Shown here: piece after piece, positions 1-54,734 of the stretch
Layout: the number at the start of each line of letters is the position of its first letter
How positions within the stretch are numbered: position 1 is the first letter of the stretch
NCBI GenBank assembly: GCA_028753945.1
Contig: JAPNXP010000006.1
Coordinates: forward strand, 1,054,001-1,118,000
Length of the DNA: 64,000 nucleotides
Source of the DNA: Hexactinellida sp. DTS-2022
Lineage: Eukaryota; Porifera; Hexactinellida
Reading direction: 5' to 3'
Made by a program: the position numbers and the translations under genes
Notes under the pieces: generated by a model
Seen by the model: the letters and a program-made list of their open reading frames with translations, nothing else
Database searches by the model: none
What the model was told of the DNA's origin: nothing

Positions 1-347
1 TCCTGCGAAATTTTGACCCAATTAAGCAGTGAAATATATTAACCGGTGGCTCTACAGTGGCGTATCCAGGATTATCGTGAGGGGGGTGCTTTGGAGCGAG
101 CTTAGCGAGCGATGGTAAGGGGGGCCTTGGGGGGCAAGCTCCCCCAGAATTTTTTTTGAATCTTAGACGCTCAAACATCAATGTACAGCTATTCTTGTCA
201 CATAGTAGGAGGAGTGTAATATAGTGCAGTTGTACAAAATTATAAATAACAACATATCCATTTTGGAAACCAGTTATGAGGGGGTGTTTGAACACCCAAA
301 TCCCCCCCCTGGATACGCCACTGCTCTATTAAGCGGAGTCGACTGTA
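1..347. mobile_element. TA-flanked MITE, family A (right part), carrying a hAT-like MITE
   Basis: The right end of a short inverted-repeat element runs to 347 and ends in the family terminus GGAGTCGACTG followed by TA. Family A starts TA-CAGTCGACTCCGCTTAAT and ends with the reverse complement, which fits a Tc1/mariner-type MITE. Its left end lies outside the window. A second MITE sits inside it at 55-323. Confidence 0.75.
55..323. mobile_element. hAT-like MITE with 16 bp TIR and 5 bp TSD
   Basis: The termini CAGTGGCGTATCCAGG (55-70) and its exact reverse complement (308-323) enclose 269 bp. The flanks CTCTA (50-54 and 324-328) form a 5 bp target duplication. Removing the element plus one duplicate restores the family A MITE around it, so this insertion is the younger of the two. 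There is no coding capacity. Confidence 0.85.
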
Positions 348-1115
348 CTGTAATGGGATTTATTGTGTCTTATATTAAATGGTCAGTGTAGTTAATGCGA
401 ATACAGTGAATTCTCTCCAACGGTATACATTCGAGCTGCGATCTGACCACTCTATAATCCGGAATTCAGCAAACATATTTTATATCCCAACGAGTATTAG
501 TGTAGGCTCTACTATATTGAATGTAATACTTAACTAGCAGTTGTCCCAGGGCCGGGGCAACGAAGGGTCTGTGGGAGAGTGTAAGCCAAAGGGACCATCA
601 GATACGATCGTAGATTGGTCTATATAGAAGTAACTAACAATGTTCGCAGGGGTTTATACGAAAGAAAACGTGGATAAGTTATTTCTACTGGCCAGATTGA
701 TCCACAAGGAACAGAGAAGAGAGACGGGATAATATATTTATCCTAACGAGCGTTATTCATAGGGAACAGTGCCCTGAAGCCCGCCAGTCCGGAAGGTAAA
801 TTCACCGTCTAATAGTAGAGGAAAGTTAATACATTACCTTAAAAGGTATCATTCTATTAGAAAGTAAGCTACAAATTTAAATAATAATTTAATCTTGCAG
901 GTGATATATATGTAATATCATAAATGAAATGATATTACATTTCAATGATTTCATTAAAGTGATTCATTGGTAATCAAAACCTAATGTAAGAATCAATATA
1001 TGGACATACTATACAGATTGCTAATGAAATCTATTAATTTTCAGAATCCAAGTAAATATATAAATTGAGTTCAAACTAATTTTTCATCAACATAAATAAT
1101 TTTATTAATTTAGGA
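348..1115. other. Intergenic; 5' flank and TATA box of membrane-protein copy 1
   Basis: No gene was seen. A repeat at about 700-797 also occurs at about 3296-3380 and 8713-8796. From about 830 onward the sequence is homologous to the 5' flanks of copies 2 and 4. A TATAAA at 1059-1064 lies 57 bp before the ATG of copy 1, at the spacing also found in copy 2. Confidence 0.6.
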
Positions 1116-2191
1116 ATGTCATTCATTAGTGACAGGTATGTATCGATCTATGATGTTCTCCGGTATTCAACAATTATACTGTGCATACTAATTATAGCTG
1201 TCCAAATTCCATGGGTAATATATATAATAGTAAACATTTCACAAAATGCGAAAATAGTCTCTAGATTGGTCCGCAATGGCTATCAACATGATGACGTAAA
1301 TGGATTCTCTAGCCACAGAAACAAACTATTGTTATACAAATACTTGCTAATGAATGTAGCTTTCGAATTGTTAACGTATGCACTAAATGTTCCAACCCTG
1401 ATCATCAGAAGTAGGCCAATTAGAAGATTAGCCGATAATATACAAGTAGATTGGCAATTCTTCGCCTTTATCTATGTGAAGTACGTTTCAGGGTGATAGA
1501 AATGGTTTTGGTCTTATGCATACTAGAGACGTTAAACCTAACAACATTGTTTGTTAAAGACGTGTATCTACGGAACAGCACACACAGTGGAATGAGAAAG
1601 AAGATTAACAGGTTTGTAGCGAGGTTCCTGTTAGTATTAGCTCTGGGAGTGAGTGGGATTGGATTGGGAATAGCATACATCTTATGCGAAGTGTTTATAA
1701 TCACACAACTGGTTCAGTACTACAGATACTCCAGGCAACTCTACAGGTCGTTAGGAATGCACTATGAAGACACTAAGTACGAGTTTGGGAGCAAAAGTAT
1801 AGAAGCTAGAACTGCTTTGAAACACAAGAAACACTACAGATGGTCTGCGATTTGGTACTTTACAATAGCAATTGGATTTGTGCTTTCTACAACAATATTC
1901 GAACTTTATTTGCCACTGAACTTCATCGGTGAAGAAAGTATCAAACGTAGACTAACAAACGAAACTATAGCATTCACTAACTCAGAAATCTATCATTATA
2001 CAAATATTGTATACTCAGTACTTTCTAGTGGAGTCTATCTATTTATTTGGATTACCTACCTACCTATCTACGTGATGTTCTCAATGTACTACCTGTGTGA
2101 CAAGTTTCTATTCGTGAGGGTATACAGACACAGATTCCATGTGAATGACAAGTGTGAAATTGAGAGCTTAGTTCAACCTCTAATAAAATGA
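1116..2191 (+). pseudogene. Multi-pass membrane protein, array copy 1 (frameshifted)
   Basis: This is the first of five tandem copies of a family I do not recognise. The first frame (1116-1496) encodes the N-terminal 126 residues, starting MSFISDRYVS, and matches copies 2 and 4. At 1491-1496 the other copies read GGGCTTATAG but this one reads GGGTGATAG. That is a net loss of one base which creates a TGA and shifts the frame. The rest continues in another frame to 2191 and is nearly identical to the back half of copy 3. The damage sits exactly at the start of the block shared by all copies. A sequencing error cannot be excluded, but the change is not in a homopolymer. Length and hydrophobic profile otherwise equal those of the intact copies. 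Confidence 0.8.
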
Positions 2192-3200
2192 AGTATGGTA
2201 TTGTTGTGCTAATTAGTAATTGAATGTAAAATAAAAGTGTAAAATATCCCTTGTAATTCAATTAATTACTATACTTGTTAATTACATCTTATTAAGCTTA
2301 AAATCCATATTGGAAAATTAACCTCATTGAGAATTTGAGATAAATGAGATGATTGCACATATTATATACCAAATAGTTATAGTAAGGAACATTGATGTGT
2401 TTGTAATACTTTAAATATAGGAGTTTGACAGAGGCATAACCTTGTGGACTATACATAACTTATTAATATACGTATATTGATTGAAACATTATATTATGGG
2501 ACCATGAAAGGAATCGTAAGTACGCCAATTGAGATCAGTGCTTAACAACAAATCCTATGGAAAATTTCTAATTTTACAAAATCAAATATTTATAGGTGTA
2601 AATTCATGGGCGAAAGATATCAGGCATGTTCAAATAAATAAATTGATGAAACTGGACTATTTAATCGTGAAACAAAGAAACAAATAATTAATGACTAGTC
2701 ACTCCTCCTGAACTAATATATTTAGAAACTTAGTTTGAAACAATTAAAATAAATAAATAAACTAATAGTTATATGATAATTAGAAAAACTATCCGGGTTC
2801 TAATATAGCGGTATCTCAGTATGAAGAGAAAACATGTAATATTACTCCTCTCGCCTCTGTAATTTACCCATATTTAAGATATTTGTAAGATAAATTTAAT
2901 AATCAAATTTAATTTCAAATAACAATGCTCAGACAAGGTTGAAACAAGATACAAACAGGAATTTTGAGAAGGTACAAATCAATGGGTGGATTCTATAAAT
3001 AATCTGCAAGCGAGTCATTTATACCAATTAGCAATTATACACAATAAATATAATTAGTGCACAAAGTAAACAATTTAATAGAATGCTAACAGTATTTAAA
3101 CTGTAATTTATCTCTATATATATTTCCCTGGGACATTTGAGACTTCATAGTTAATCAATTCATTTTGATAACATTTTGATATCATTTAGATCACCAAAAA
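2192..3200. other. AT-rich intergenic, 3' flank shared with copy 3
   Basis: The first ~200 bp after copy 1 match the sequence after copy 3 (7533-7745) almost base for base. From about 2880 the sequence matches 8290 onward. No gene was seen. It is part of a tandem segmental duplication. Confidence 0.7.
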
Positions 3201-3310
3201 TATATAAATTGAATTGAAATAAAATTAATACTAATTACTATTAACACGTAAGAATGTCAAATACCATCGATTTGTATGATTTGATTCAACAGAGAAGGAA
3301 CAGAGAAGAG
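3201..3310 (+). pseudogene. Promoter and truncated start of a membrane-family gene (remnant 1)
   Basis: A TATAAA at 3203-3208 is followed 51 bp later by ATG (3254) and a short frame reading MSNTIDLYDLIQQRR. This aligns with the MSNATELYG start of copies 3 and 5. After about 3300 the gene is replaced by the repeat also seen at 700-797. The remnant is duplicated at 8618-8720. Confidence 0.6.
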
Positions 3311-3437
3311 AGTCCGGATAATATATTTATCCTAACGAGCGTTATTCACAGGGAACAGTGCCCTGAGGCCCGCCAGTCCTTTGGCGGCACTGGTATAAAT
3401 TATTAATGCGCAGAATAAAATCAAAACATTAGACAGA

Positions 3438-3626
3438 TACAGTCAACTCCGCTTAATAGAGCCACCGGTTAATAGATTTCACTGAATAATTGGGTCAAAA
3501 TTTAGTAGGATTTATAGGACAGAATTACATTTTGGCTTAAAATATTTTCGGTTAATAGATTTCTCCGCTTAATCGGATCAAAGCAACCTGGTCCCGAGGT
3601 GACTCTATTAAGCGGAGTTGACTGTA
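3438..3626. mobile_element. Family A MITE
   Basis: TA-flanked element with ends CAGTCAACTCCGCTTAATAG and its reverse complement, 189 bp. A near-identical copy lies at 8855-9043 as part of the segmental duplication. Confidence 0.75.
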
Positions 3627-4068
3627 ATACTAAAAAAGCATCGGAATAACGTAATAGATTAAAAACAAATTCATAGCAGGGTGTGGAAAGCAAGTCACAA
3701 CGGGAAATTCTGGGGCGTTACAAGAACTACGAGACGGAAGCTAAATTCACCGTCAAATAGTAGAGGAAAGTTAATACATTACCTTAAAAGGTATTTCTAT
3801 TAGAAAGTAAGCACTAAATTTAAATATTAATTTATCCTTGCAGGTTATATATATGTAAATATCATAAATGAAATATATGTAATATCATAAATGAAATGTT
3901 ATTACATTTCATTAAAGTGATTCATTGGTAATCAAAACCTATTATAAGAATCAATATGTACATACAATACAGATCGCTAATGAAATCTATTAATTTTCAG
4001 AATATAAGTAAATATATAAATTGAGTTCAAACTAATTTTCATCAACATAAATATTTTATTAATTAGGA

Positions 4069-5145
4069 ATGTCATTTACTATTGACAGGTATGTATCGAT
4101 CAATGATGTTCTCCAGTATTCAACAATTATACTGTGCATACTAATTATAGCTGTCCAAATGCCATGGGTAATATATATAATAGTAAACATTTCACAAAAA
4201 GCGAAAATATTCTCTAGATTGGTCCGCAATGGCTATCAACATGATGACGTCAATGCATTCTCTAGCCACAGAAACAAACTATTGCTATACAAATACTTGC
4301 TAATGAATGTAGCTTTCGAATTGTTAACGTTTGCACTAAATGTTCCAACCCTGATCATCAGAAGTAAGCCAATCAGAGGAATAGCCGATAATATACAAGT
4401 AGATTGGATACTCTTCGCCTATCTCTATGTGAAGTACGTTTCAGGGCTTATAGAAATGGTTTTGGTCTTATGCATACTAGAGACGTTAAACCTAACAACA
4501 TTGTTTGTTAAAGACGTGTATCTACGGAACAGCACACACAGTGGAATGAGAAAGAAGATTAACAGGTTTGTAGCGAGATTCCTGTTAGTATTAGCTCTGG
4601 GAGTGAGTGGGATTGGATTGGGAATAGCATACATCTTATGCGAAGTGTTTCTAATCACACAACTAGTTCAGTACTACAGATACTCCAGGCAACTCTACAG
4701 GTCGTTAGGAATGCACTATGAAGACACTAAGTACGAGTTTGGAAGCAAAAGTATAGAAGCCAGAACTGCTTTGAAACACAAGAAACACTACAAATGGTGG
4801 ACTATTTGGATGTTTATAATATTATTTTGCTTGGAGTTTTTTATAACTTTGTTCGTAATCACTATACCATTCCGGCTCCTAAATGAAAGGTTCATTGAAC
4901 AAAGGCTGACAGAGAATAATATAACATTTATTTACTCAGATATATATTACTATATCAATATAGCCGGCGAGTTTGTAATCAATGGGTTCGGATTAATTAT
5001 TACGCTTATGTACATGCCTATCTACGTGATATTCTCAATGTACTACCTGTGTGACAGGTTTCTATTCGTGAGGGTATACAGACACAGATTCCATGTGAAT
5101 GACCAGTATGAAATTGAGAGCTTAGTTCAACCTTTAATAAAATGA
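4069..5145 (+). CDS. Multi-pass membrane protein, array copy 2
   Basis: Intact 358-residue single-exon gene of an unrecognised family. Six or seven strongly hydrophobic stretches are visible, roughly at residues 18-44, 70-98, 118-155, 165-200, 245-272 and 300-340. Loops between them are basic (MRKKINRF; EARTALKHKKHYK), and no signal peptide or known domain is evident. Residues ~139-242 form a block almost identical at DNA level in all five copies, while both ends diverge. A TATAAA at 4015-4020 lies 54 bp upstream of the ATG, at the spacing found in copy 1. Copy 4 differs by three residues only (IL to LS near residue 252, N to D near residue 308). A chemoreceptor-like or other lineage-specific membrane role is possible, but nothing in the sequence shows it. 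Confidence 0.85.
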   Translation: MSFTIDRYVSINDVLQYSTIILCILIIAVQMPWVIYIIVNISQKAKIFSRLVRNGYQHDDVNAFSSHRNKLLLYKYLLMNVAFELLTFALNVPTLIIRSKPIRGIADNIQVDWILFAYLYVKYVSGLIEMVLVLCILETLNLTTLFVKDVYLRNSTHSGMRKKINRFVARFLLVLALGVSGIGLGIAYILCEVFLITQLVQYYRYSRQLYRSLGMHYEDTKYEFGSKSIEARTALKHKKHYKWWTIWMFIILFCLEFFITLFVITIPFRLLNERFIEQRLTENNITFIYSDIYYYINIAGEFVINGFGLIITLMYMPIYVIFSMYYLCDRFLFVRVYRHRFHVNDQYEIESLVQPLIK

Positions 5146-6431
5146 ATAAATATTACAATTGGAATGTGTGTTTACTATATATTTAAAAAAATTAAAAAAT
5201 ACCCTTTTATTATACAAATGTTAAATGAATTACTACTAGCTAATACAGATCATTTAAACTTGAGACCATTTGAGGAAATTGGCTCATTGAGATTACTGAA
5301 TATTATTAAGATAAACAGTTATAATAAGGAACACAAGGGAAGATGGGGAACAATAAGGCTCTCGTAATATAGACTCCGTATTATATCTGTGCTAAATACA
5401 GACAATTATTAAACCATTATTAGAACACACAACTTTTTTTCACAACTAGTAACTCAACCAATGGTCAAAGTATCTACTAATTAGGACAATTAGATACAAT
5501 AAGAATTTACTTCCAAAAGACCAAAACATGCAAACAAAAGTTGAGTTAATTAAACTTGTTTTAAATTTAAATAATCAATTTATCTGTTTGAAGTAGTAAA
5601 TATTCGTTTAATTTATATGTAGAAATTTGAAAATATTAAATTGTTAATTGAATACCTACATTTATGTTATAATTTTTGGTCGAATCGTGCGAAATTTATA
5701 GAAAATAAGGATAGTTGTCTCGTACATCAAGTCAATAAAATGGTGTATTCCACCCTGAATTTTGATAGAATCTATAAAAGTATTTGTCCAAAATATAAAT
5801 AATAAATATTAAGATATAATATTTAAAGTGGCACGATCTGATTCAAACATACAAATACAGTCGACTCCGCTTAATAGAGCCACCAGTTAATAGATTTCTC
5901 CGCTTAATAGGGTCAAAATTTCACAGGATTTATAGGATGGAATAGCAGTTCGGCTTAAAATATTTTCGGTTAATAGATTTATCCGCTTAATCGGGTCAAA
6001 GCGACCTGATCCCGAGGTGACTCTATTAAGCGGAGTCGACTGTAAATCTAAAAGAAATAGGATTCAAATAACTGTGGTAAAGGTAAATCTAATAATTAAA
6101 CACAATTATATACGTAAGGGTAAAACTAAATTTATAAGTGGCTTGCAATTATTTTATTGATTGAAATAACAGTATTGATAAGTTCACACTTAGCAATGTC
6201 ATAGTAATAATTAATTTAAAGAAAATTAAATAATACTTAGGTCAACATTTTCTAAAAATATAATTAAATTGCGTACAATATATGATCATATTTAATTCAA
6301 TATTTCCAAAATTATGTAGTATTATATTAGTGGTAGTCAATTTCGCTTGGACGAAAAATGAATCTTAATTTTGCCTACGACATAAATGTATCAAATAGAT
6401 ATAAATTGATTCAAAACTAAGTCAAAAACAA
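5146..6431. other. AT-rich spacer between copies 2 and 3, with family A MITE
   Basis: The spacer is homologous throughout to 11777-13018 between copies 4 and 5. A family A MITE lies at 5856-6044. A TATAAA at 6400-6405 serves copy 3. A 67-codon frame just after copy 2 recurs after copy 4, but only because the whole spacer is duplicated. Confidence 0.7.
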
Positions 6432-7532
6432 ATGGAAATAAACTTAGACATGTCAAATGCTACTGAATTGTATGGATCGACCAGAGAAGGTTTTCTATAT
6501 TCAACAATATTCCTGCACATATTTATTATACTTATCCAAGTACCATGGATAATATATTTAATTAATCACATTTTCCAACAAGATAAAATTGTCTCTAGAC
6601 TGGTGCTCAATGGATTTCAACATGAAGACATAAATTTAGCTTTTCGCAAGAGAAACAAACTATTGTTATACAAATACTTGCTAATGAATTTAGTATTCGA
6701 ATTGTTAGTGTTAGTATCAATAGTTATAAACACCTCAATCAGATGTATGCCCATTAGAGAAATAGGCCAATCCGAAGTTAATACTATAGATTGGCTACCA
6801 TATACCTATCTGTATGTAAAGTACGTTGCAGGACTCATAGAAATGGTTTTGGTCTTATGCATACTAGAGACGTTAAACCTAACAACATTGTTTGTTAAAG
6901 ACGTGTATCTACGGAACAACACACACAGTGGAATGAGAAAGAAGATTAACAGGTTTGTAGCGAGATTCCTGTTAGTATTAGCTCTGGGAGTGAGTGGGAT
7001 TGGATTGGGAATAGCATACATCTTATGCGAAGTGTTTATAATCACACAACTGGTTCAGTACTACAGATACTCCAGGCAACTCTACAGGTCGTTAGGAATG
7101 CACTATGAAGACACTAAGTACGAATTTGGGAGCAAAAGTATAGAAGCTAGAACTGCTTTGAAACACAAGAAACACTACAGATGGTCTGCGATTTGGTACT
7201 TTACAATAGCAATTGGATTTGTGCTTTCTACAACAATATTCGAACTTTATTTGCCACTGAACTTCATCGGTGAAGAAAGTATCAAACGTAGACTAACAAA
7301 CGAAACTATAGCATTCACTAACTCAGAAATCTATCATTATACAAATTTTGTATACTCAGTACTTTCTAGTGGAGTCTATCTATTTATTTGGATTACCTAC
7401 CTACCTATCTACGTGATATTTTCAATGTACTACCTGTGTGACAAGTTTCTATTCGTGAGGGTATACAGACACAGATTCCATGTGAATGACAAGTGTGAAA
7501 TTGAGAGCTGTGTTCAACCTCTAATAAAATGA
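6432..7532 (+). CDS. Multi-pass membrane protein, array copy 3 (chimeric)
   Basis: Intact single-exon gene, 366 residues from the first ATG. The TATAAA at 6400-6405 is only 27-32 bp from that ATG but 50 bp from a second in-frame ATG at 6450 (MSNATELYG). The second matches the spacing and the MS start of the other copies, so it is the likelier start (360 residues). The front half, promoter included, is identical to copy 5. From about 6850 onward the back half and the 3' flank are nearly identical to copy 1. The switch falls within a 14 bp stretch common to both parents (about 6837-6850). The hydrophobic pattern is the same as in copy 2. Function unknown. Confidence 0.85.
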   Translation: MEINLDMSNATELYGSTREGFLYSTIFLHIFIILIQVPWIIYLINHIFQQDKIVSRLVLNGFQHEDINLAFRKRNKLLLYKYLLMNLVFELLVLVSIVINTSIRCMPIREIGQSEVNTIDWLPYTYLYVKYVAGLIEMVLVLCILETLNLTTLFVKDVYLRNNTHSGMRKKINRFVARFLLVLALGVSGIGLGIAYILCEVFIITQLVQYYRYSRQLYRSLGMHYEDTKYEFGSKSIEARTALKHKKHYRWSAIWYFTIAIGFVLSTTIFELYLPLNFIGEESIKRRLTNETIAFTNSEIYHYTNFVYSVLSSGVYLFIWITYLPIYVIFSMYYLCDKFLFVRVYRHRFHVNDKCEIESCVQPLIK

Positions 7533-8617
7533 AGTATGGTATTGTTGTGCTAATTAGTAATTGAATGTAAAATAAAAGTGTAAAATATCCCTTGTAATTC
7601 AATTAATTACTATACTTGTTAATTACATCTTATTAAGCTTGAAATCCATATTGGAAAATTAACCTCATTGAGAATTTGAGATAAATGAGATGATTGCACA
7701 TATTCTACACCAAATAGTTAATATTTATAGTAAGGAACATTGATGTCATTGGCGAGAAGTTGCCCGGGCAGATTCTAGAAGCACATTGGCTGCCCGGGTA
7801 GATTTTGGAACGAATTATCAATTTACTATAATAGTATTAGTCTTACCGATGATGCCTTCTCAAAACTTACATAATGCACTTTATTGAATTTCTTATTCAA
7901 TTGCGTATTCCTTATTTGTTACTATTGTAGTTGCTATATACCTTGACAGGTGTAAGTCTCCAACCTGCTCTCCGAGAATGTCTAAAAGGTATATTGACGA
8001 TGGCTCAAAACAGCCAAGTAACGCTAGCTAATTCCTGGCGGCTATAAAAAATATTCAATTTTGGGAATAATATTTGTGGGGTTAATTAACCCTACAAAAT
8101 AATAGTCCCAGTCTTTGGAGAAGACATCATCGGTAAAATTATAGTATTATAGCAAATTGATATTTCGATCCAAAATCTACCCGGGCCGCGAGGGCTACTT
8201 CTACGCCTATGGGTTAATATCTCGCCCGGGAACATTTTAGTGATTTGGGGAAAATTTTACGCCTATGCATACCTCTGTGCAATTTTCCCATATTTACTAT
8301 ATTTGTAAGATGTATTTAATGATCCAATTTAATTTCAAATAACAATGCTCAGACAAGGTTGAAACAAGATACAAACGGGAATTTTGAGAAGGTACAAATC
8401 AATGGGTGGACTCTTTAAATAATCTGCAAGCGAGTCATTTATACCAATTAGCAATTATACACAATAATTATAATTAGTGCACAAAGTCACCAATTTAATA
8501 GAATGCTAACAGTATTCAAACTGTAATTTATCTCTATATATTCCCTGGGACATTTGAGACTTCATAGTTAATCAATTCATTTTGATATCATTTTGATATC
8601 ATTTAGATCACCAAAAA
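7533..8617. other. Spacer after copy 3 with a CCCGGG-ended repeat
   Basis: The sequence follows the copy 1 3' flank to about 7745. About 530 bp absent there then follow, bounded by inverted TGCCCGGGTAGATTTTGG-like ends (about 7790 and 8170) and further GCCCGGG motifs. From about 8290 it is homologous to 2880 onward. No gene was seen. Confidence 0.55.
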
Positions 8618-8720
8618 TATATAAATTGAATTGAAATCAAATTAATACTAATTACTATTAACAAGTAAGAATGTCAAATACTATCGATTTGTATGATTTG
8701 ATTCAACAGAGAAGGAACAG
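8618..8720 (+). pseudogene. Promoter and truncated start of a membrane-family gene (remnant 2)
   Basis: Duplicate of the remnant at 3201. TATA-like ATATAAATTG is followed by ATG at 8671 and MSNTIDLYDLIQQRR, then the same unrelated repeat. Its presence in both units shows the truncation predates the segmental duplication. Confidence 0.6.
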
Positions 8721-8854
8721 AGAAGAGAGTCCGGATAATATATTTATCCTAACGAGCGTTATTCACAGGGAACAGTGCCCTGAGGCCCGCCAGTCCTTTG
8801 GCGGCACTGGTATAAATTATTAATGCGCAGAATAAAATCAAAACATTAGACAGA

Positions 8855-9043
8855 TACAGTCAACTCCGCTTAATAGAGCCACCGGTTAATAGATTTCACT
8901 GAATAATTGGGTCAAAATTTAGTAGGATTTATAGGACAGAATTACATTTTGGCTTAAAATATTTTCGGTTAATAGATTTCTCCGCTTAATCGGATCAAAG
9001 CAACCTGGTCCCGAGGTGACTCTATTAAGCGGAGTTGGCTGTA
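8855..9043. mobile_element. Family A MITE (duplicate of 3438-3626)
   Basis: Same TA-flanked ends and the same position relative to the upstream remnant and downstream gene as the copy at 3438. It was carried along by the segmental duplication rather than inserted independently. Confidence 0.75.
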
Positions 9044-9468
9044 ATACTAAAAAAGCATCGGAATAACGTAATAGATTAAAAACAAATTCATAGCAGGGTG
9101 TGGAAAGCAAGTCACAACGGGAAATTCTGGGGCGTTACAAGAACTACGAGACGGAAGCTAAATTCACCGTCAAATAGTAGAGGAAAGTTAATACATTACC
9201 TTAAAAGGTATTTCTATTAGAAAGTAAGCACTAAATTTAAATATTAATTTATCCTTGCAGGTTATATATATGTAAATATCATAAATGAAATATATGTAAT
9301 ATCATAAATGAAATGTTATTACATTTCATTAAAGTGATTCATTGGTAATCAAAACCTATTATAAGAATCAATATGTACATACAATACAGATCGCTAATGA
9401 AATCTATTAATTTTCAGAATATAAGTAAATATATAAATTGAGTTCAAACTAATTTTCATCAACATAAA

Positions 9469-10681
9469 TCTATATTATTAAATCTCGATTGTTGTGTGTT
9501 TGTGTGTGTGTTTGTTTGTCCGGATTGTATTAAAGTGATGGGGGAATAGAAACCGCATTTATATATGAGATATAAACTAACTTTCAAATGTTATAATTGG
9601 TAAACAAAAGTTATAAGGGGTAAACAAGTATGCTGATTTCGAATTTCGCGTTTATAACTTTCTCATATTAATATTTGTTGTTGTTGTTTACACAAAATAG
9701 GTAAACAAATTAATGAAATTCAAAATCAACCTAGAAGTTTGCTTTCAACGGGTATTATAGGTAAACAAGTATGCTGATTTCGAATTTCGCGTTTATAAAT
9801 TTCTCATCTTAATATTTGTTGTTGTTGTTTACACAAAATAGGTAAACAAATTAATGAAATTCAAAATCAACCTAGAAGTTTGCTTTCAACGGGTATTATA
9901 GGTAAACAAGTATGCAGAACACGAATTTCGCATTTAAAATTTTCTAATATGAATTTTTTTGTTGTTGTTGTTTACACAAATAGGTAAACAAATTAATGAA
10001 AATTCAAAATCAACCTAGAAGTTAGCTTTCAACGGGTATTATAGGTAAACAAGTATGCTGATTTCGAATTTCGCGTTTATAAATTTCTCATCTTAATATT
10101 TGTTGTTGTTGTTTACACAAAATAGGTAAACAAATTAATGAAATTCAAAATCAACCTAGAAGTTTGCTTTCAACGGGTATTATAGGTAAACAAGTATGCT
10201 GATTTCGAATTTCGCGTTTACAAATTTCTAATGTGAATATTTGTTGTTGTTGTTTACACACAAAATAGGTAAACAAATTAATGAAAATTCAAAATCAACC
10301 TAGAAGTTAGCTTTCAACGGGTATTATAGGTAAACAAGTATGCAGAACACGAATTTCGCATTTAAAATTTTCTAATATGAATTTTTTTGTTGTTGTTGTT
10401 TACACAAATAGGTAAACAAATTAATGAAAATTCAAAATCAACCTAGAAGTTAGCTTTCAACGGGTATTATAGGTAAACAAGTATGCTGAACACGATTTTC
10501 GCGTTTAAAAATTTAGAATATGAAAAACAAGTTAAAACATGGAAATCTTATATAGGGATCTATATAACGTCCCTTTCTACCATTTTCCATGGCAGAAGGG
10601 TGAGGAGTAAGGCCGCATAGCGGCCGTTAACTGAGGTGCGTAGCACCGATCTGTCGCAAAGCGACCGAGACCGAAGGGCTC
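9469..10681 (+). mobile_element. Helitron-like element with internal tandem array
   Basis: Compared with the empty site in front of copy 2 (around 4050), about 1.21 kb is inserted between an A and a T with no target duplication. The element begins TCTATATTATTAAA and ends with GC-rich hairpins closing in GACCGAAGGGCTCG. The A/T target, 5' TC and 3' hairpin are Helitron traits, but the terminal bases are CTCG rather than CTRR. Other ends of this type occur at 14431-14746, about 20084-20266, 25218-25246, 32187-32283 and 39047-39178. There is no Rep/helicase coding, so it is non-autonomous. It separates copy 4 from its TATA box. Confidence 0.7.
9620..10510 (+). repeat. Tandem array, 141-144 bp period, six copies plus a partial
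   Basis: The phrase GTAAACAAGTATGC starts at 9620, 9761, 9902, 10045, 10186, 10330 and 10473. The array lies inside the Helitron-like element. Units contain a GTT microsatellite and GGTAAACAAATTAATGAAA. Confidence 0.9.
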
Positions 10682-10699
10682 GTATTTTATTAATTAGGA

Positions 10700-11776
10700 A
10701 TGTCATTTACTATTGACAGGTATGTATCGATCAATGATGTTCTCCAGTATTCAACAATTATACTGTGCATACTAATTATAGCTGTCCAAATGCCATGGGT
10801 AATATATATAATAGTAAACATTTCACAAAAAGCGAAAATATTCTCTAGATTGGTCCGCAATGGCTATCAACATGATGACGTCAATGCATTCTCTAGCCAC
10901 AGAAACAAACTATTGCTATACAAATACTTGCTAATGAATGTAGCTTTCGAATTGTTAACGTTTGCACTAAATGTTCCAACCCTGATCATCAGAAGTAAGC
11001 CAATCAGAGGAATAGCCGATAATATACAAGTAGATTGGATACTCTTCGCCTATCTCTATGTGAAGTACGTTTCAGGGCTTATAGAAATGGTTTTGGTCTT
11101 ATGCATACTAGAGACGTTAAACCTAACAACATTGTTTGTTAAAGACGTGTATCTACGGAACAGCACACACAGTGGAATGAGAAAGAAGATTAACAGGTTT
11201 GTAGCGAGATTCCTGTTAGTATTAGCTCTGGGAGTGAGTGGGATTGGATTGGGAATAGCATACATCTTATGCGAAGTGTTTCTAATCACACAACTAGTTC
11301 AGTACTACAGATACTCCAGGCAACTCTACAGGTCGTTAGGAATGCACTATGAAGACACTAAGTACGAGTTTGGAAGCAAAAGTATAGAAGCCAGAACTGC
11401 TTTGAAACACAAGAAACACTACAAATGGTGGACAATTTGGATGTTTATATTATCATTTTGCTTGGAGTTTTTTATAACTTTGTTCGTAATCACTATACCA
11501 TTCCGGCTCCTAAATGAAAGGTTCATTGAACAAAGGCTGACAGAGAATAATATAACATTTATTTACTCAGATATATATTACTATATCGATATAGCCGGCG
11601 AGTTTGTAATCAATGGGTTCGGATTAATTATTACGCTTATGTACATGCCTATCTACGTGATATTCTCAATGTACTACCTGTGTGACAGGTTTCTATTCGT
11701 GAGGGTATACAGACACAGATTCCATGTGAATGACCAGTATGAAATTGAGAGCTTAGTTCAACCTTTAATAAAATGA
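10700..11776 (+). CDS. Multi-pass membrane protein, array copy 4
   Basis: Intact 358-residue duplicate of copy 2, with three amino-acid differences (near residues 252-253 and 308). The reading frame is undamaged, but the Helitron-like insertion ends only 18 bp before the ATG. The TATAAA used by copy 2 is therefore now about 1.26 kb upstream (9432-9437). Expression may be lost, driven by the transposon, or spliced across it. The protein topology is as in copy 2 and its function is unknown. Confidence 0.82.
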   Translation: MSFTIDRYVSINDVLQYSTIILCILIIAVQMPWVIYIIVNISQKAKIFSRLVRNGYQHDDVNAFSSHRNKLLLYKYLLMNVAFELLTFALNVPTLIIRSKPIRGIADNIQVDWILFAYLYVKYVSGLIEMVLVLCILETLNLTTLFVKDVYLRNSTHSGMRKKINRFVARFLLVLALGVSGIGLGIAYILCEVFLITQLVQYYRYSRQLYRSLGMHYEDTKYEFGSKSIEARTALKHKKHYKWWTIWMFILSFCLEFFITLFVITIPFRLLNERFIEQRLTENNITFIYSDIYYYIDIAGEFVINGFGLIITLMYMPIYVIFSMYYLCDRFLFVRVYRHRFHVNDQYEIESLVQPLIK

Positions 11777-13018
11777 ATAAATATTACAATTGGAATGTGT
11801 GTTTACTATATATTTAAAAAAATTAAAAAATACCCTTTTATTATACAAATGTTAAATGAATTACTACTAGCTAATACAGATCATTTAAACTTGAGACCAT
11901 TTGAGGAAATTGGCTCATTGAGATTACTGAATATTATTAAGATAAACAGTTATAATAAGGAACACAAGGGAAGATGGGGAACAATAAGGCTCTCGTAATA
12001 TAGACTCCGTATTATATCTGTGCTAAATACAGACAATTATTAAACCATTATTAGAACACACAACTTTTTTTCACAACTAGTAACTCAACCAATGGTCAAA
12101 GTATCTACTAATTAGGACAATTAGATACAATAAGAATTTACTTCCAAAAGACCAAAACATGCAAACAAAAGTTGAGTTAATTAAACTTGTTTTAAATTTA
12201 AATAATCAATTTATCTGTTTGAAGTAGTAAATATTCGTTTAATTTATATGTAGAAATTTGAAAATATTAAATTGTTAATTGAATACCTACATTTATGTTA
12301 TAATTTTTGGTCGAATCGTGCGAAATTTATAGAAAATAAGGATAGTTGTCTCGTACATCAAGTCAATAAAATGGTGTATTCCACCCTGAATTTTGATAGA
12401 ATCTATAAAAGTATTTGTCCAAAATATAAATAATAAATATTAAGATATAATATTTAAAATGGCACGATCTGATTCAAACATACAAATACAGTCGACTCCG
12501 CTTAATAGAGCCACCAGTTAATAGATTTCTCCGCTTAATAGGGTCAAAATTTCACAGGATTTATAGGACGGAATAGCAGTTCGGCTTAAATATTTTCGGT
12601 TAATAGATTTATCAGCTTAATCGGGTCAAAGCGACCTGATCCCGAGGTGACTCTATTAAGCGTCGACTGTAAATCTAAAAGAAATAGGATTCAAATAACT
12701 GTGGTAAAGGTAAATCTAATAATTAAACACAATTATATACGTTAGAGTATAACTAAATTTATAGTGGCTTGCAGTTATTTTATTGATTGAAATAACAGTA
12801 TTGATAAGAAAATTAAATAATACTTAGGTCAACATTTTCTAAAAATATAATTAAATTGCGTACAATATATGATCATATTTAATTCAATATTTCCAAAATT
12901 ATGTAGTATTATATTAGTGGTAGTCAATTTCGCTTGGACGAAAAATGAATCTTAATTTTGCCTACGACATAAATGTATCAAATAGATATAAATTGATTCA
13001 AAACTAAGTCAAAAACAA
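11777..13018. other. Spacer between copies 4 and 5, with family A MITE
   Basis: Duplicate of 5146-6431. Family A MITE at 12487-12671 has lost a few bases near its right terminus. TATAAA at 12987-12992 serves copy 5. No gene was seen. Confidence 0.7.
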
Positions 13019-14110
13019 ATGGAAATAAACTTAGACATGTCAAATGCTACTGAATTGTATGGATCGACCAGAGAAGGTTTTCTATATTCAACAATATTCC
13101 TGCACATATTTATTATACTTATCCAAGTACCATGGATAATATATTTAATTAATCACATTTTCCAACAAGATAAAATTGTCTCTAGACTGGTGCTCAATGG
13201 ATTTCAACATGAAGACATAAATTTAGCTTTTCGCAAGAGAAACAAACTATTGTTATACAAATACTTGCTAATGAATTTAGTATTCGAATTGTTAGTGTTA
13301 GTATCAATAGTTATAAACACCTCAATCAGATGTATGCCCATTAGAGAAATAGGCCAATCCGAAGTTAATACTATAGATTGGCTACCATATACCTATCTGT
13401 ATGTAAAGTACGTTGCAGGACTCATAGAAATGGTTTTTGTCCAATGTGTCCTAGATACGTTAAACCTAACAACATTGTTTGTTAAAGACGTGTATCTACG
13501 GAACAGCACACACAGTGGAATGAGAAAGAAGATTAACAGGTTTGTAGCGAGATTCCTGTTAGTATTAGCTCTGGGAGTGAGTGGGATTGGATTGGGAATA
13601 GCATACATCTTATGCGAAGTGTTTCTAATCACACAACTGGTTCAGTACTACAGATACTCCAGGCAACTCTACAGGTCGTTAGGAATGCACTATGAAGACA
13701 CTAAGTACGAGTTTGGGAGCAAAAGTATAGAAGCTAGAACTGCTTTGAAACACAAGAAACACTACAAATACACTACTATCTGGTTCCTTATAACAATAGT
13801 AATGCTAATATCGGGAGTAACTTTCGTTGAGTTAAGTCTACCATACTATTTCCTAGAAAATACTTGCATCCAACAATTAATAGCAAATCATAACTTAACA
13901 TTTATGAACTCAACCATATTACATGATATTGGTATCTCATCTTCTATAATTTCCCAAATACTTATGTTAATAACTTTTCTAATGTTAATACTCTTCTATA
14001 CTGTATTCTCAGTGTATTACTTGTGCAGCAAGCTATTATGTGTGAAGAAACGCAAATACAGATACCATGTGAGGTACTTGGAGGGACACAGAAGATTAAT
14101 TCTGAAGTAA
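13019..14110 (+). CDS. Multi-pass membrane protein, array copy 5
   Basis: Intact single-exon gene, 363 residues from the first ATG. A second ATG at 13037 lies 50 bp from the TATAAA and is the likelier start, as argued for copy 3. The N-terminal half equals copy 3. The C-terminal ~115 residues (after KHYKYTTIW) are unlike any other copy here, and the 3' flank is unique too. The central 313 bp block (13457-13769) still differs from copy 2 at only three positions, all synonymous. Copy 5 is probably the ancestral owner of the front half now shared with copy 3. Confidence 0.85.
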   Translation: MEINLDMSNATELYGSTREGFLYSTIFLHIFIILIQVPWIIYLINHIFQQDKIVSRLVLNGFQHEDINLAFRKRNKLLLYKYLLMNLVFELLVLVSIVINTSIRCMPIREIGQSEVNTIDWLPYTYLYVKYVAGLIEMVFVQCVLDTLNLTTLFVKDVYLRNSTHSGMRKKINRFVARFLLVLALGVSGIGLGIAYILCEVFLITQLVQYYRYSRQLYRSLGMHYEDTKYEFGSKSIEARTALKHKKHYKYTTIWFLITIVMLISGVTFVELSLPYYFLENTCIQQLIANHNLTFMNSTILHDIGISSSIISQILMLITFLMLILFYTVFSVYYLCSKLLCVKKRKYRYHVRYLEGHRRLILK

Positions 14111-14430
14111 AGTGATGCTGTATGGTTAATGTGAATAGTTCATACTCATGGTAAATAATGGAAATACATTATTCTTTGTCCAATAATTGGTAATTGAGAA
14201 TATCATAAATTTGTACCTTAGTTTGTAATACGTGTTGATGTTCATAAACATACTATTTACTATTTATGTATTAAAAATATTATTGTTTAATTACTTTAAT
14301 ACCTAATTTATATTTGTCCTATAACCAATAAACTAAACTCGGTATAATATTGCATTTTACCAAAATCCGTTATATGTGGGTTTTGGATTTGGAATGCTCT
14401 ATGAAATACGTGATCTATAATAATCCATAT
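14111..14430. other. AT-rich 3' flank of copy 5
   Basis: No gene or repeat recognised. Confidence 0.5.
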
Positions 14431-14746
14431 TATTATACTCGATTGTTGTTTGTTTGTCCGGATTGTATTAAAGTGATGGGGGAATAGAAACTGCATTTAT
14501 AATTGAGATATGAACTAACTTCCAAATGTTATAATAGTTAAACATGCTTTTACGAAATTCGCATTTACAAATTTATTATATGAACATTTACTGTTGTTGT
14601 CTACAAAATAGGTAATAAATTAATGAGAATTCAAAATCACCTAGAAGTTGGCTTTCAACGGGTATTATAGGTAACAAGTTAAAACTATGGAAATGATAGA
14701 AAGAGTGAGGAGTAAGGCCGTAAAGCGACCGAGACCGAAGGGCTCG
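14431..14746 (+). mobile_element. Short Helitron-like element, CTCG-ended type
   Basis: It starts TCCATATTATTATACTCG and ends ACCGAAGGGCTCG followed by T, with an A before the start. It has one unit of the sequence arrayed in the 9469 copy, so this looks like the unexpanded form. Confidence 0.6.
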
Positions 14747-17155
14747 TTTATTGTTATAGTTAAAGTTATCTTTTCTCTCATAATGCAATATAATCTTATT
14801 AGTTATTACACTGTATATATTCTAAATCTTTTTATTTCTTTTTATATTATTTTAATGTACAAAATTGTAAGCGCATTTGAGACATTTGTATAATGCGCAA
14901 ACAAATGCTACATTATTATTATTAATTCTATGTTTAAAATACGGAAGTATAATACGTGAATAATGCCATTATGGTATTATACAACTTTATTAGATTAGCA
15001 TGTGAAGATTTCAATAGGTTTCTACAGTATAACTCGGTTATAACGTGGTTAGTGCCTACTTCTGCTTAGTACGTACTACTATTTTTTAACTAAGTTTATA
15101 AATCAGTGTGTATTTCTTTGTAGAGTAACTTCGGTTAGTACGTACACTCGAACAAGGGTGGGGTTGGCTAACCGATCTGAGGCAACGGTTACAATTCGAT
15201 TACTCGCCACGGTTAACCGGTTAACCGCCCATCCTACTCAATACAATAAATCCTTTATACAAATTTGATTATACTACAGAATAAGACTCAGGTGTATAAA
15301 GGATAACTGCGTAAGTATATTAACTGATACATTTCGTGCTTTAGGCAAATTTAAATCAATGTTGTCCAATAAAATTTATTAAGTGGTGATGAGAAATGGA
15401 TTTAGGACTACATATTCTGATAAAATTCAAAAAGTTTTAATACTTTATACATTAATTTCCCAATAACTCTGCTGATATTCAACAGACCGGCTAACTGGTT
15501 AATAAAATCTCTAACCGTTAACCGATGTCAGCAACGGTTAACCGGTTAACCGGTTAACCGAATCCAGCCTTGACTCGGATAATACGTACGTACTTATTTT
15601 CCATTCCCAAGGGGGTACGGTATAACAGAGATCTACTGCATAGTCATCTTTAATCATATTATAAATGTTATTGTCAGGCCTTATATAATTTTGTTTACTA
15701 CAGTGGTGTTCGAAAATATCAATTCGCATTTTGCACGAAATTTGTTTGCTAATAGACGAACTTGCTATTAAGCGAACATACTGTATATGTATAAATTAGT
15801 TACTATGTTACTTTGTAAACAATATGTCAATATTCTTAATGTTAAAAATACAGTAAGGTCTGCTTATTATTGTGAAGAATTTTTCGTCTGCATAATATGA
15901 AGGTTTTAGAGACCCCTTAAAAATTTAGAGACGCCTTAAAAATATTATATTATTATTGGAGCAAGTCATAGTAACTAAATGTCGCACTCAGGAAGGAGGG
16001 CAGTGATACAATGTGCATTTAACAATGAGAGTAATCATTAAAACGTATGCAAGTCCCTAAACACTAAGTATGTATACGTGTTGGATGTGTAGACTCACTA
16101 GACAAGGTGGTATAGTTAGGGATACCAGGGTTTCATTTAGACATTGACTCAAGTGATGGCAAAATTATGGTTTTCAGGAATAAGGGATGGCGAGGATGTA
16201 GGTACTTTAGGTACTTGAGCGGTATAGATCAACTAAAGATTGATTAGACTATAACAATATACTCACTCTATGCAAAACGCGGGATCCCTAAATCGCTAGT
16301 GATTTAGGGCCCCACAAGAACACAATAGGTTAGCTATTTCGGCCCCTGGGTCCCTAAACGCGCTTACGCCAGTTTGTTTCAATTTATCTTCATAATTTAG
16401 CACATTTAGTACAAAATAGTATATCAGGATGCAAGACCAAATGTTTCTAAAGTCTATAATAACCAATACCTTGGGGGGCAATCCCGTTCCATATTTCGGT
16501 ACTTTGATTTTCCGGAATGGTACCGTTCCATACCGTTCCGTTCCGGAAATTAGGTATGTCCAACTTACATAGGGTTTGTAATAAGTTGAGTTAGCTTAGT
16601 ATGAATTATCTCTATTATGAACACAATTTTTGGTCCCTTGAATGTTCATAATAAAAGAACTTGACTGTATAGCATAAACTATAATACATTGTATTACACT
16701 AATAATTGTATATAGTACCTTATTTCCCGAATAAGCACCGGGTCAATAACAATGTCATTTGTATGATAAAATTAATTGCCATTAGCTATATAACTGAAAT
16801 GTAATTAAATTGATTTATGCAATTTCGGTACATATGTTTACTTTCGAAGAGAACCATTAGAATCCACCTAATATTAATATTTACAGGATTTTTTAAAAAA
16901 TTGAGGGTAAATTTGGCCCACGCCATTCGGGAAAAACAACCGAAGTAATTGTTAGTATTCAAAATATAAGTTCAGAGAAAATACAGTAAATAAACATAAT
17001 TAGAGATAATAACAAGGCAGTGGAGTTAGAACTGGCCTACAAAATAAATCTGACAATAGTTTATAAGATTCCAGGATTACTAGCTCTTAAATTTGATTCT
17101 TAAATCTAGAACAAAATATACATTTCCCAATAAATAATATTAATAATAATATTAA
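14747..17155. other. Repeat-rich intergenic region
   Basis: No gene was seen. Around 15118-15600 an element with ends like the 20004-20082 repeat (TTCGGTTAGTACGTAC) contains a second element made of repeated GGTTAACC units (about 15160-15570). At about 16485-16560 there is a GTTCCGTTCCGGAA repeat, related to one at 35620-35930. At about 16715-16935 there is a fragment of the CCCGAATAAGC family. Confidence 0.5.
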
Positions 17156-17639
17156 TACAGTAAACTCCGCCTAATTGGGACAATTCCCCAAGAACCAAAC
17201 CTATTCCATAGAAGCTAATACTAAAAAAATTCGGTTAATTGGGACAAACTCCGCTTAATCGGGACAAACTCAACAAATTTAGTTCAAAATTCAAAATTGG
17301 TACTAGCTCAATAAAAAATTCATAATGATCAAAATAAATTCTAATAATCTTGAACAATTCTGATAAAGGTATAACAAAATATCTAAATAGGGTCTGTTAT
17401 CTTATTGATTCCGTAAATCGAATTTACCAGAGATTATGACCTTGTGGTTAATGGATAGTTCTAACGGTCCACAGAATATTAAGGGTCTGCGGAATTGTCA
17501 CAGGTTTAAAACTGAAATTGTAGTAAATCGTTACACTAAATCGCTGCTTTATATAAATTATTCGGTTAATTGGAAACTCCGCTTAATAGGGACAAGAGGC
17601 CTGAAACAAACGTGTCCCAATTAAGCGGAGTAGACTGTA
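17156..17639. mobile_element. Long family A-related MITE
   Basis: TA-flanked, 484 bp, with ends CAGTAAACTCCGCCTAATTG and a matching inverted right end. Internal AATTGGGACAAACTCCGC repeats occur. It is a longer relative of family A with GGGACA in place of GAGCCA. Confidence 0.65.
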
Positions 17640-21976: not shown

Positions 21977-23266
21977 ATGGCGACACAAATACCTGAGCTA
22001 ATCCCAGTGCCAATCGTAGACCCCGTATCGATGCAAATCAACCAAACAATAGACAGGTTGATACTCTCTCTCGAGCAGAGAAGGCACCAGCTGTTGACCG
22101 ACTTAAGGGACAGAAGAGAGGAAATGAGAGCCATTCGGGAGGCGCGTCAACAAATGCAACAACAAATAACCGAAACCCGCGCATTAGTGGAAGGTCAAAT
22201 GACTCACAATTTGCTACATTCCTTTCAGGAGAAAATGCTCACAGATTTGGAAGCTAAAATGGCAGAAATGCAAGTGGCAGCACCACCTCAAGAAGTGAGC
22301 TACCTCTTCGACACACGGGACCTAGAGGAACGTATCTCCCGTCTGGGAGAGATTCTACAATTCGAGACTCCTCCCATCCCTCCTGTGCCAGCGATACCAA
22401 ACTATGCCACATTCCAACAGCCCATTGTTGCTGTTGGGAAACCAGGATCAGCTCCTGGAAAGTTTGAAAAGCCAAGAGGTGTCTCAATCGATACGCAATC
22501 TGGACACATTTATGTGGCGGATATGTGGAACAGAAGAATCCAAATATTCTCAGAGACTGGAGACTATATCAACAAATTCGGACAACAACACCATATAACT
22601 CCATGGGGCATATTAATCCATCAGGATAGCATTTATGTCACGGATGTAAGCGAACACGCTATCTTCCTATTCAAGCTTCCAGAACTCACAATGGTAAAGC
22701 AAGTAGGGACGAGAGGATCTGGTTATGAAGAGTTCAATGGTCCGGGACAACTCGCCATCTCTCCCAATCAACGCCTCTACGTGCCAGATCAAAACAACAA
22801 CAGAATCCAAATCCTGTCCTTAGATCTAGCTTTCCAAGACTCGCTACGAAATCGAACAATGACACAACCTTCCGATGTTAAATTCACAAAGAATGAAATG
22901 TTTGTGTTAAGCTGTGAAGACAATCCCTGTATCCACGTGTTTACACTATCAGGAGAGAAGTCCCGCTCCCTAGTTACCGGAGGAGGAATAGGAATGCAAG
23001 TTTCAGGAGCATGGTTCTTCTGTCTAGACGGACGCAATAATATTGTCATCAGCGACCGCTCAGCTCACGCTATCAAGGTATTCTCTCCAGCAGGAGACCT
23101 CCTACACACGTTAGGACGGAAAGGACATCAACCTGGAATGTTTTACAGACCATTTGGCATCGCTATCCTCAACAACACTAAATTAGTTTGTATCTCTTGT
23201 AACGATTCATGTGCATTGCAAATATTTTCCCAGTTTTTTTGTAAATTTTGTGTGAAAAATGAATAA
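21977..23266 (+). CDS. Coiled-coil NHL-repeat protein (copy 1)
   Basis: Intact single-exon gene, 429 residues. Residues ~15-130 are charged and helical with many Q, E and R (EQRRHQLLTDLRDRREEMRA), a likely coiled coil. Residues ~150-425 hold about six NHL blades, for example GKFEKPRGVSI...GHIYVADMWNRRIQIF and QLAISPNQRLYVPDQNNNRIQIL. The arrangement recalls the coiled-coil plus NHL part of TRIM-NHL proteins, but no RING or B-box precedes it. NHL propellers bind RNA or protein; the partner here is unknown. The last residues (IFSQFFCKFCVKNE) differ from the paralogue's ending (IFDGINL). A 185 bp stretch (22877-23065) is almost identical to the 44131 paralogue. Direct repeats flank the gene. Confidence 0.85.
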   Translation: MATQIPELIPVPIVDPVSMQINQTIDRLILSLEQRRHQLLTDLRDRREEMRAIREARQQMQQQITETRALVEGQMTHNLLHSFQEKMLTDLEAKMAEMQVAAPPQEVSYLFDTRDLEERISRLGEILQFETPPIPPVPAIPNYATFQQPIVAVGKPGSAPGKFEKPRGVSIDTQSGHIYVADMWNRRIQIFSETGDYINKFGQQHHITPWGILIHQDSIYVTDVSEHAIFLFKLPELTMVKQVGTRGSGYEEFNGPGQLAISPNQRLYVPDQNNNRIQILSLDLAFQDSLRNRTMTQPSDVKFTKNEMFVLSCEDNPCIHVFTLSGEKSRSLVTGGGIGMQVSGAWFFCLDGRNNIVISDRSAHAIKVFSPAGDLLHTLGRKGHQPGMFYRPFGIAILNNTKLVCISCNDSCALQIFSQFFCKFCVKNE

Positions 23267-34118: not shown

Positions 34119-34181
34119 CAGGGTTCTATCTACTGGGGGGGAAGCTTCCCCCACAAATTTAACATCCTAGATAGAACCCTG
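34119..34181. mobile_element. Tiny MITE, 63 bp, 5 bp TSD
   Basis: Ends CAGGGTTCTATCTA and TAGATAGAACCCTG, flanked by ATAGT at 34114-34118 and 34182-34186. Little remains besides the inverted repeats. Confidence 0.85.
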
Positions 34182-34864
34182 ATAGTAGTCGCTAATGACG
34201 ATGTTATTGCGTTTGTCCAAACTGAAGAATAATGGGTTTCTCACTTGCCTTCCTCTGGTAATTAGGGAGCGGGACTTCTCTCCTGATAGTGCAAACACGT
34301 GGATACAAGGATTGTCTTCATGCCTTAACACAAACATTTCATTGTTTGTGAACTTATCATCAACAGGTGTTGTCATTGTTTGATGTTGTAATGAGCCTTG
34401 GAAAGTTAGATCTAAGGACAGGATTTGGATTCTGTTATTGTTTAAATCTGGCACGTAGAGGCGTTGATTGGGAGAGATGGCGAGTTGTTTCGGATAATTA
34501 AACTCTTCATTTCCAGATCCATGCTTTCCTACTCGGTTCACCATTTTGAGATCCTGGAAGCTTGAATATGAAGATAGCGTATCGGTTATGTCCGTTACAA
34601 AAATGATATCCTGATGAATGAATATTCCCCATGGACTTATCAGGTGTTGCTGTCCGAATTCGTTGAGATAGTCTCCTGTCTCTGAGAATATTTGGATTCG
34701 ACTGTTGCTCATATCCGCCACATAAATGTGTCCAGATTCCGTATCGATTGAGACACCTTTTGGGCCGTGAAACTCTCCAGGAGCTGATCCTACTTTCCCA
34801 ACAGCTACAATGGGCTGTTGGAATGTGGCATAGTTTGGTATCGCTGGCATAGGAGGGATGGGAG

Positions 34865-54473: not shown

Positions 54474-54734
54474 ATGCCCAGACGTTGTGCAGCATTTAAT
54501 TGTCGAGGGAATTATAGTCGTAAACCTTACTCGCAATTAGTTAGCTTTCCATCAAATGAAAACGAAAGAAAAACTTGGATTGGTGCAATGCCCAATAATC
54601 CACAAACTTTAATTGGAAGAAAGGAAATTTGGATATGCGCTTCACACTTTGACTGCGATTGGGTAAAAACAAGAGGAGGGAAACGTCCTGCTAAGCCACC
54701 TACTATATTTCCTGGTGTTCCCAAATCATCATGA
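54474..54734 (+). CDS. THAP DNA-binding domain of P-element transposase
   Basis: This 86-codon frame is a THAP zinc finger. It has MPRRCAAFNCRGNY with the first cysteine pair (C5, C10), a tryptophan at WIGAMP and the second pair ICASHF. It ends in the proline-rich AVPTIF-type motif KPPTIFPGVP. In P elements THAP sits at the N-terminus of the transposase and binds the element's ends. The TGA overlaps the ATG of the next frame by 4 bp (ATGA). In known elements the two parts form one protein, so a small intron or a one-base shift probably joins them. Confidence 0.85.
   Translation: MPRRCAAFNCRGNYSRKPYSQLVSFPSNENERKTWIGAMPNNPQTLIGRKEIWICASHFDCDWVKTRGGKRPAKPPTIFPGVPKSS

Follow-up and report, generated by a model that had tools for sequence, protein, structure and literature searches.

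A nearly invariant core within membrane-protein genes with divergent, recombined ends in a glass sponge

In the glass sponge Hexactinellida sp. DTS-2022, a cluster of membrane-protein genes combines a central stretch that is nearly invariant, silent sites included, with front and back parts that fall into distinct, strongly diverged types and occur in several combinations. A second cluster carries a block of its own at the homologous position. Recurrent gene conversion together with crossing-over at the conserved core, taken jointly with a reading of that core as a signalling face, is the likely explanation. The window is the whole stretch of 64,000 bases that was analysed (bases 1054001-1118000 of contig C15), and the genome searched comprises 112.4 Mb in 18 contigs. 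The core is defined as 102 codons, from LNLTTLF to KHKKHY, which are residues 140-241 of copy 2. The features concerned are the following.

1116..2191, plus strand: copy 1 (w1), broken gene, 5' type A and 3' type x by flank comparison
1532..1837, plus strand: constant core of copy 1, from the repeat family and the copy alignment
4069..5145, plus strand: copy 2 (w2), intact, 358 aa, types A and y
4486..4791, plus strand: constant core of copy 2, residues 140-241
6432..7532, plus strand: copy 3 (w3), intact, 366 aa, types B and x
6873..7178, plus strand: constant core of copy 3
10700..11776, plus strand: copy 4 (w4), intact, 358 aa, types A and y, near-duplicate of copy 2
11117..11422, plus strand: constant core of copy 4
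13019..14110, plus strand: copy 5 (w5), intact, 363 aa, types B and z, a chimera
13460..13765, plus strand: constant core of copy 5
4994..5146, plus strand: second homogenised stretch in copy 2, covering the end of TM7 and the C-tail (repeat family, 92-100%)
2040-2192, 7381-7533 and 11625-11777: second homogenised stretch in other copies, absent from copy 5
2854..7213, plus strand: source unit of a tandem duplication, copy 2 and the front of copy 3, matching 8272-13803
8272..13803, plus strand: duplicate unit whose far end falls at the core of copy 5, with 3' type z there instead of x

The first-pass annotation had reported near-identical blocks of 313 bases at five places in the window, and a block is found at each of them, the five forming one repeat family over 300 nucleotides that overlap the block, with 97-99% identity to copy 1. 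Its assignment of the blocks to five membrane-protein genes needs amending for copy 1, which is broken: it consists of two overlapping frames, 1116-1496 and 1451-2191, and the reading frame is interrupted just before the core. The description of the block as exon-sized finds no support, as the intact copies are each one open frame, and an exon or splicing unit is rejected on the same ground. The count of five holds within the window but not genome-wide: with the 313-base block as query, at least nine copies are found, every one of them on C15. Besides the five in the window there are three no more than 8 kb upstream, in both orientations, near 1046.9, 1049.7 and 1052.3 kb (c1046, c1049 and the 1052 copy), and one downstream, the far copy, on the minus strand at 1392.4 kb, about 324 kb past copy 5. 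Seven of the nine are intact; w1 and the 1052 copy have broken frames. Protein searches add distant relatives, namely three genes on C4 (5282-5287 kb), seven on C3 (462-526 kb) and single genes on C1, C7 and C18, so that the superfamily holds at least 22 loci in the genome, the nine C15 copies included. The thirteen family loci outside C15 are also single open frames.

Other features of the window lie between or beyond these genes. A dispersed repeat of about 200 bp occurs between the gene copies at 3433-3635, 5851-6053, 8850-9052 and 12482-12590 (two repeat families). Three NHL-repeat propeller genes lie at 21977-23266, 34167-34850 and 44131-45387; judged by eye, the propellers are alike in all three, and the first and last have a similar charged N-terminal part. 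A transposase-like gene with TNP-like RNase H domains occupies 54731-57133.

The contrast between core and flanks is clearest at synonymous sites. Across the nine cores only 20 of 307 columns vary, one of them being a one-base gap in the broken 1052 copy, and the seven intact genes differ from one another in the core by dS 0.00-0.11 and dN 0.00-0.025. In pairs of unlike flank type, dS runs from 0.39 to saturation in the 5' flank and from 0.50 to 1.7 in the middle of the 3' part. Synonymous differences are unevenly spread between the core and the rest of the gene at Fisher p <= 4.4e-6 in 18 of the 21 pairs of intact genes, and the remaining three pairs are of one flank type (among c1046, w2 and w4). 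The contrast is extreme for c1049, which matches the other copies over only about 320-360 bp, its flank windows being 33-60% alike; in its pairs the 5' flank is saturated (five of six) or at dS 2.4 (one of six), and the core lies at 0.05-0.11. The comparison of dS along the gene that had been proposed as a check thus gives a low core and high flanks, which favours conversion, and copies 2 and 5 do differ as had been claimed, at three synonymous and no non-synonymous sites of the 102-codon core. The claim that the flanks have diverged strongly is true of unlike flank types but not of every pair, for copies 2 and 4 are near-identical throughout the gene, copies 3 and 5 have a common 5' half and copies 1 and 3 a common 3' half. 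Core divergence need not track flank divergence: w5 and the far copy differ by dS 0.015 in the core and 0.60 in the 5' flank, and c1046 and w2, of the same flank type, by 0.063 in the core. A second homogenised stretch covers the C-terminal end in three of the five 3' types, with C-terminal dS of 0.05-0.16 between the unlike types x, y and f.

Within one flank type, c1046 offers a separate observation. In its 5' flank, dN is 0.052 and dS 0.125 against w2 and w4, and in the middle of the 3' part, from TM6 to TM7, dN is about equal to dS (0.115 and 0.101; 0.134 and 0.124), a hint of relaxed or diversifying selection.

Could plain tandem duplication, recent and followed by fast evolution of the ends, have produced these genes with no exchange at all? 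One real duplication is present in the window: 2854-7213 matches 8272-13803 at 97.5-97.8%, in two pieces. Duplication by itself, however, predicts equal dS along the gene where unequal dS is found, and within one gene the synonymous sites should all be of one age, which those of c1049 could not be, with a flank that is saturated or at 2.4 and a core at 0.05-0.11. The trees of the two ends also conflict, and as a full account duplication is hardly credible.

The duplicated copy 4 is separated from the upstream region common to copy 2 by an insertion at 9467-10682, of about six 141-bp tandem units, whose end lies 17 bp before copy 4 begins and which looks Helitron-like. Pieces related to it lie at 14447-14679, near 1042.6 kb of C15 and near the far copy. 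The insertion may have changed the expression of copy 4.

The borders of the block are sharp on the 3' side, where similarity between unlike types ends within about 10 bases of the core end in the eight copies, of nine, for which this border was compared. On the 5' side there is a sharp drop in c1049 and copy 5, and the far copy remains type A-like further upstream. A change-point scan of codon identity places the block at residues 124-138 to 224-242 in all five C15 pairs tried, of 21 possible, with none of 200 permutations as good in any of the five. Because the scan uses only codons that specify the same amino acid in both genes, conservation of the protein cannot create a block in it. The boundaries probably mark the end of protein constraint.

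On either side of the core, the ends of the genes are mosaic. The 5' parts fall into types A (c1046, the 1052 copy, w1, w2, w4), B (w3, w5), C (c1049) and D (the far copy), and the 3' parts into types y (c1046, the 1052 copy, w2, w4), x (w1, w3), z (w5) and f (the far copy), with a further type in c1049; the combinations A-y, A-x, B-x and B-z are all present. For the nine copies, the tree of the 5' parts and that of the 3' parts are mutually incompatible (AU p 9.2e-56 and 5.9e-42). The core is consistent with the 3' tree (AU 0.108), and it rejects the 5' tree in the AU test (0.026), though neither KH nor SH does so. One event is still visible in the duplication of 2854-7213 to 8272-13803, where, at the core of copy 5, type z takes over from type x, which, from the arrangement of the sequence, is what unequal crossing-over at the core would leave. 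Beside the far copy, at 1395.8-1396.1 kb of C15, there is what remains of a type-z 3' end, which is 92% like that of copy 5. The first-pass view of modular proteins with a constant core and variable ends is therefore right, and the ends have additionally been recombined with each other.

The same arrangement recurs elsewhere in the superfamily. The C4 genes have their own, different core sequence at the homologous position, with pS of 0.13-0.31 in the core and 0.64-0.72 elsewhere (p <= 7.6e-8 in all three pairs). In the scan their block starts at aligned residue 133-147 and ends at 218-261, with none of 200 permutations as good in any of the three pairs; a short middle piece of the C4 core is less alike (pS 0.31-0.51).

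The C3 genes serve as a control. There, too, the region is the slower part of the protein (pN 0.15-0.25 vs 0.28-0.44), but the synonymous sites of the core have diverged, at pS 0.42-0.81, in 20 of the 21 pairs; the exception is a recent duplicate. The scan finds no block beyond permutation in 20 of the 21 C3 pairs (at least 10 of 100 permutations as good), and in the recent-duplicate pair it is significant (2 of 100 permutations) with the block elsewhere. Core pS is mildly lower in C3, at uncorrected p<0.05 in six of the 21 pairs, with one of 21 in the opposite direction; this mild lowering may reflect older and rarer exchange. Since the C3 region is conserved in protein and yet diverged at synonymous sites, protein constraint alone does not freeze such sites, and the earlier argument that constraint would not preserve them is backed by this cluster. 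Together with the dS contrast, the control supports the choice of gene conversion as the simplest reading.

The constraint might instead act on the nucleotides themselves, whether through an RNA element, an overlapping code or codon usage, and freeze the core without exchange. The region is the slower part of the protein in both C3 and C4, and the mild lowering of pS in the six C3 pairs points the same way. Against this stand the homologous C3 cores, diverged at synonymous sites in all pairs but the recent duplicate. An overlapping code is rejected, as all five alternative frames of the copy-2 core contain stops, and so is an RNA structure, as the core folds no better than shuffled sequences (z-score -0.49); Rfam gives no match in positions 1-17500 of the window. 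Such constraint is very improbable as the cause. GC-biased conversion as a general cause is rejected as well, silent-site GC being not generally raised: fourfold-site GC in the C15 genes is 0.32-0.38 in the core, 0.33-0.44 in the 5' flank and 0.21-0.38 in the 3' part, the core exceeds its 5' flank by at most 0.01, and GC3 is above the codon-shuffled expectation in two of seven C15 genes (p 0.004 and 0.003) and in none of three C4 genes.

A GENECONV-style run test gives a mixed result over the 21 pairs, with at most 9 of 2000 permutations as good in nine pairs and at least 63 of 2000 in the other twelve, counting polymorphic columns only. The latter include all six c1049 pairs (the lowest at 63, a nominal 0.03) as well as w2-w5, w4-w5 and w5 with the far copy. 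The test is of little use here because it drops the columns in which all copies agree, that is, nearly the entire core, and the runs with low counts need not be the core; the longest run in w3-w5 may well be their shared 5' half.

Is the exchange recurrent, or did a single recent burst put the same core into all copies, which have drifted since? Core divergence is low in every pair (dS 0-0.11), and the 3' border falls at nearly the same place in the eight copies compared, both as a burst would have it. However, of ten pairs of informative core sites four are incompatible, with every one of the four allele combinations present, the second homogenised tail is present in only some 3' types, and the C4 cluster has a block at the same position. 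A single burst is accordingly quite unlikely, and recurrent conversion, which may still be going on, is preferred.

What kind of protein carries this core? Nine family proteins scanned against Pfam give nothing above the curated cut-offs, the GPCR families being unmatched, and the insect odorant and gustatory receptor profiles are absent from the matches listed at E<=10. A PDB profile search with six proteins gives no match, and one with 15 proteins gives the chain TMHC2_E at E 0.078, which was taken as chance and rejected. The AlphaFold2 model, computed on four window proteins, is too poor for use (pLDDT 45, pTM 0.23). Hydropathy over 19 family members gives TM1, TM2, TM3, a long span, TM6 and TM7; the long span, with charged residues in its middle in C3 and C4, is read as a TM4-TM5 hairpin.

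Charge and glycosylation motifs bear on the orientation of these spans. In each of the three subfamilies, loops L1, L3 and L4 and the C-terminus carry an average net positive charge, and sequons occur in L2 in 9 of 9 C3-like proteins, in L5 in five of six C15 proteins and at the N-terminus in all four C4/C18 proteins. Against this orientation are sequons in L3 (six of six C15 and seven of nine C3-like proteins), at the inner end of TM3 (six of six C15) and at the C-terminus (four of nine C3-like), and a net charge of +1.2 in L5 of C4/C18. On balance, from sequence properties, L3 and L4 probably face the cytosol in a GPCR-like layout. By hydropathy and charge, the core then runs from where TM3 ends to where TM6 begins, cytosolic loops included, though some sequons disagree. 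With part of the sequons against this layout and the AlphaFold2 model unusable, the family is not filed as a GPCR. It is plausible that a constant signalling face is here combined with variable sensing ends.

A different function for the core has to be weighed at this point, one that would leave the account of exchange untouched: it could form the pore of a channel-like seven-helix protein, or the interface by which such a protein oligomerises, and not a face for G proteins. Seven hydrophobic spans also suit the fold of insect odorant and gustatory receptors, and the sequons in L3 leave room on orientation, but the nine proteins match no such Pfam family among those listed at E<=10, and the charge pattern suggests an N-terminus outside the cell, the opposite of the insect receptors, in which it is oriented the other way. 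We consider the channel-like function rather unlikely.

Together, these results suggest a model whereby a family of single-exon, seven-transmembrane-like genes undergoes partial concerted evolution. Conversion between paralogues would overwrite the central ~306 bp, on either strand and over about 324 kb, and the flanks, too diverged to pair, would escape it. The common core would in turn be a site of homologous exchange, by unequal crossing-over or long conversion, joining 5' types A and B to 3' types x, y and z in varied combinations. In the protein, the core would begin at the end of TM3 and take in the TM4-TM5 hairpin, with a positive loop on either side of it, as far as the start of TM6. 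It would face signalling partners, and TM1-TM3, TM6-TM7 and the outward loops would form a variable sensing side.

Crossing-over within tandem arrays of vertebrate opsin and odorant receptor genes is known to create chimeric genes with new combinations of ends. No sequence relation to those arrays was found, and in the C15 family the point of exchange is a nearly invariant core. Regional conversion by which part of a receptor-type protein stays constant is itself already known, in protocadherins and fish NLRs. The fugu protocadherins, as described (PMC1852091), are tandem paralogues with 3' regions more than 99% identical, divergent 5' regions and a discrete boundary, and the authors considered protein constraint unlikely, since synonymous sites escape it. 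They resemble the C15 family in having a homogenised tract bounded off from divergent sequence, but in fugu a large variable exon is constant at one of its ends, and in C15 it is the middle of a single-exon gene that stays constant; GC3 is raised in the fugu genes and in only two of seven C15 genes (PMC1852091). In the zebrafish NLR-B30.2 genes, as described, conversion keeps groups uniform in one domain and a positively selected domain varies (PMC4852459). Conversion there, as in the C15 family, acts unequally on the parts of a protein, but these are multi-domain immune proteins and the C15 products small membrane proteins (PMC4852459). What differs in the sponge is an internal core with both sides variable, in a small single-exon gene, with mosaic ends and a recurrence in C4. 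The titles and beginnings of abstracts listed from the literature on glass-sponge genomes, on gene conversion and chemoreceptors, on sponge GPCRs and on receptor mosaics gave no description of the family, and none was found that joins 'glass sponge' and 'gene conversion'; the Oopsacas glass-sponge genome paper was checked for GPCR-related terms only, in part of its text (PMC10280926).

Homogenisation in mid-gene in two deeply diverged clusters provides a natural experiment on the boundaries of conversion tracts. It poses the question of whether these boundaries are set by sequence similarity or by selection for a constant core with varied ends, in a membrane-protein superfamily for which no family name was found. 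A broader idea, which we offer tentatively as a possibility, is that this receptor superfamily without known relatives is a germline system of mix-and-match, in which a signalling core, homogenised by conversion within each cluster, would act as a crossover hub that recombines front and back sensing halves, homogenisation at this structural position having at least two origins, one in C15 and one in C4. The arrangement also predicts which part of the protein would be the common machinery and which would set specificity.
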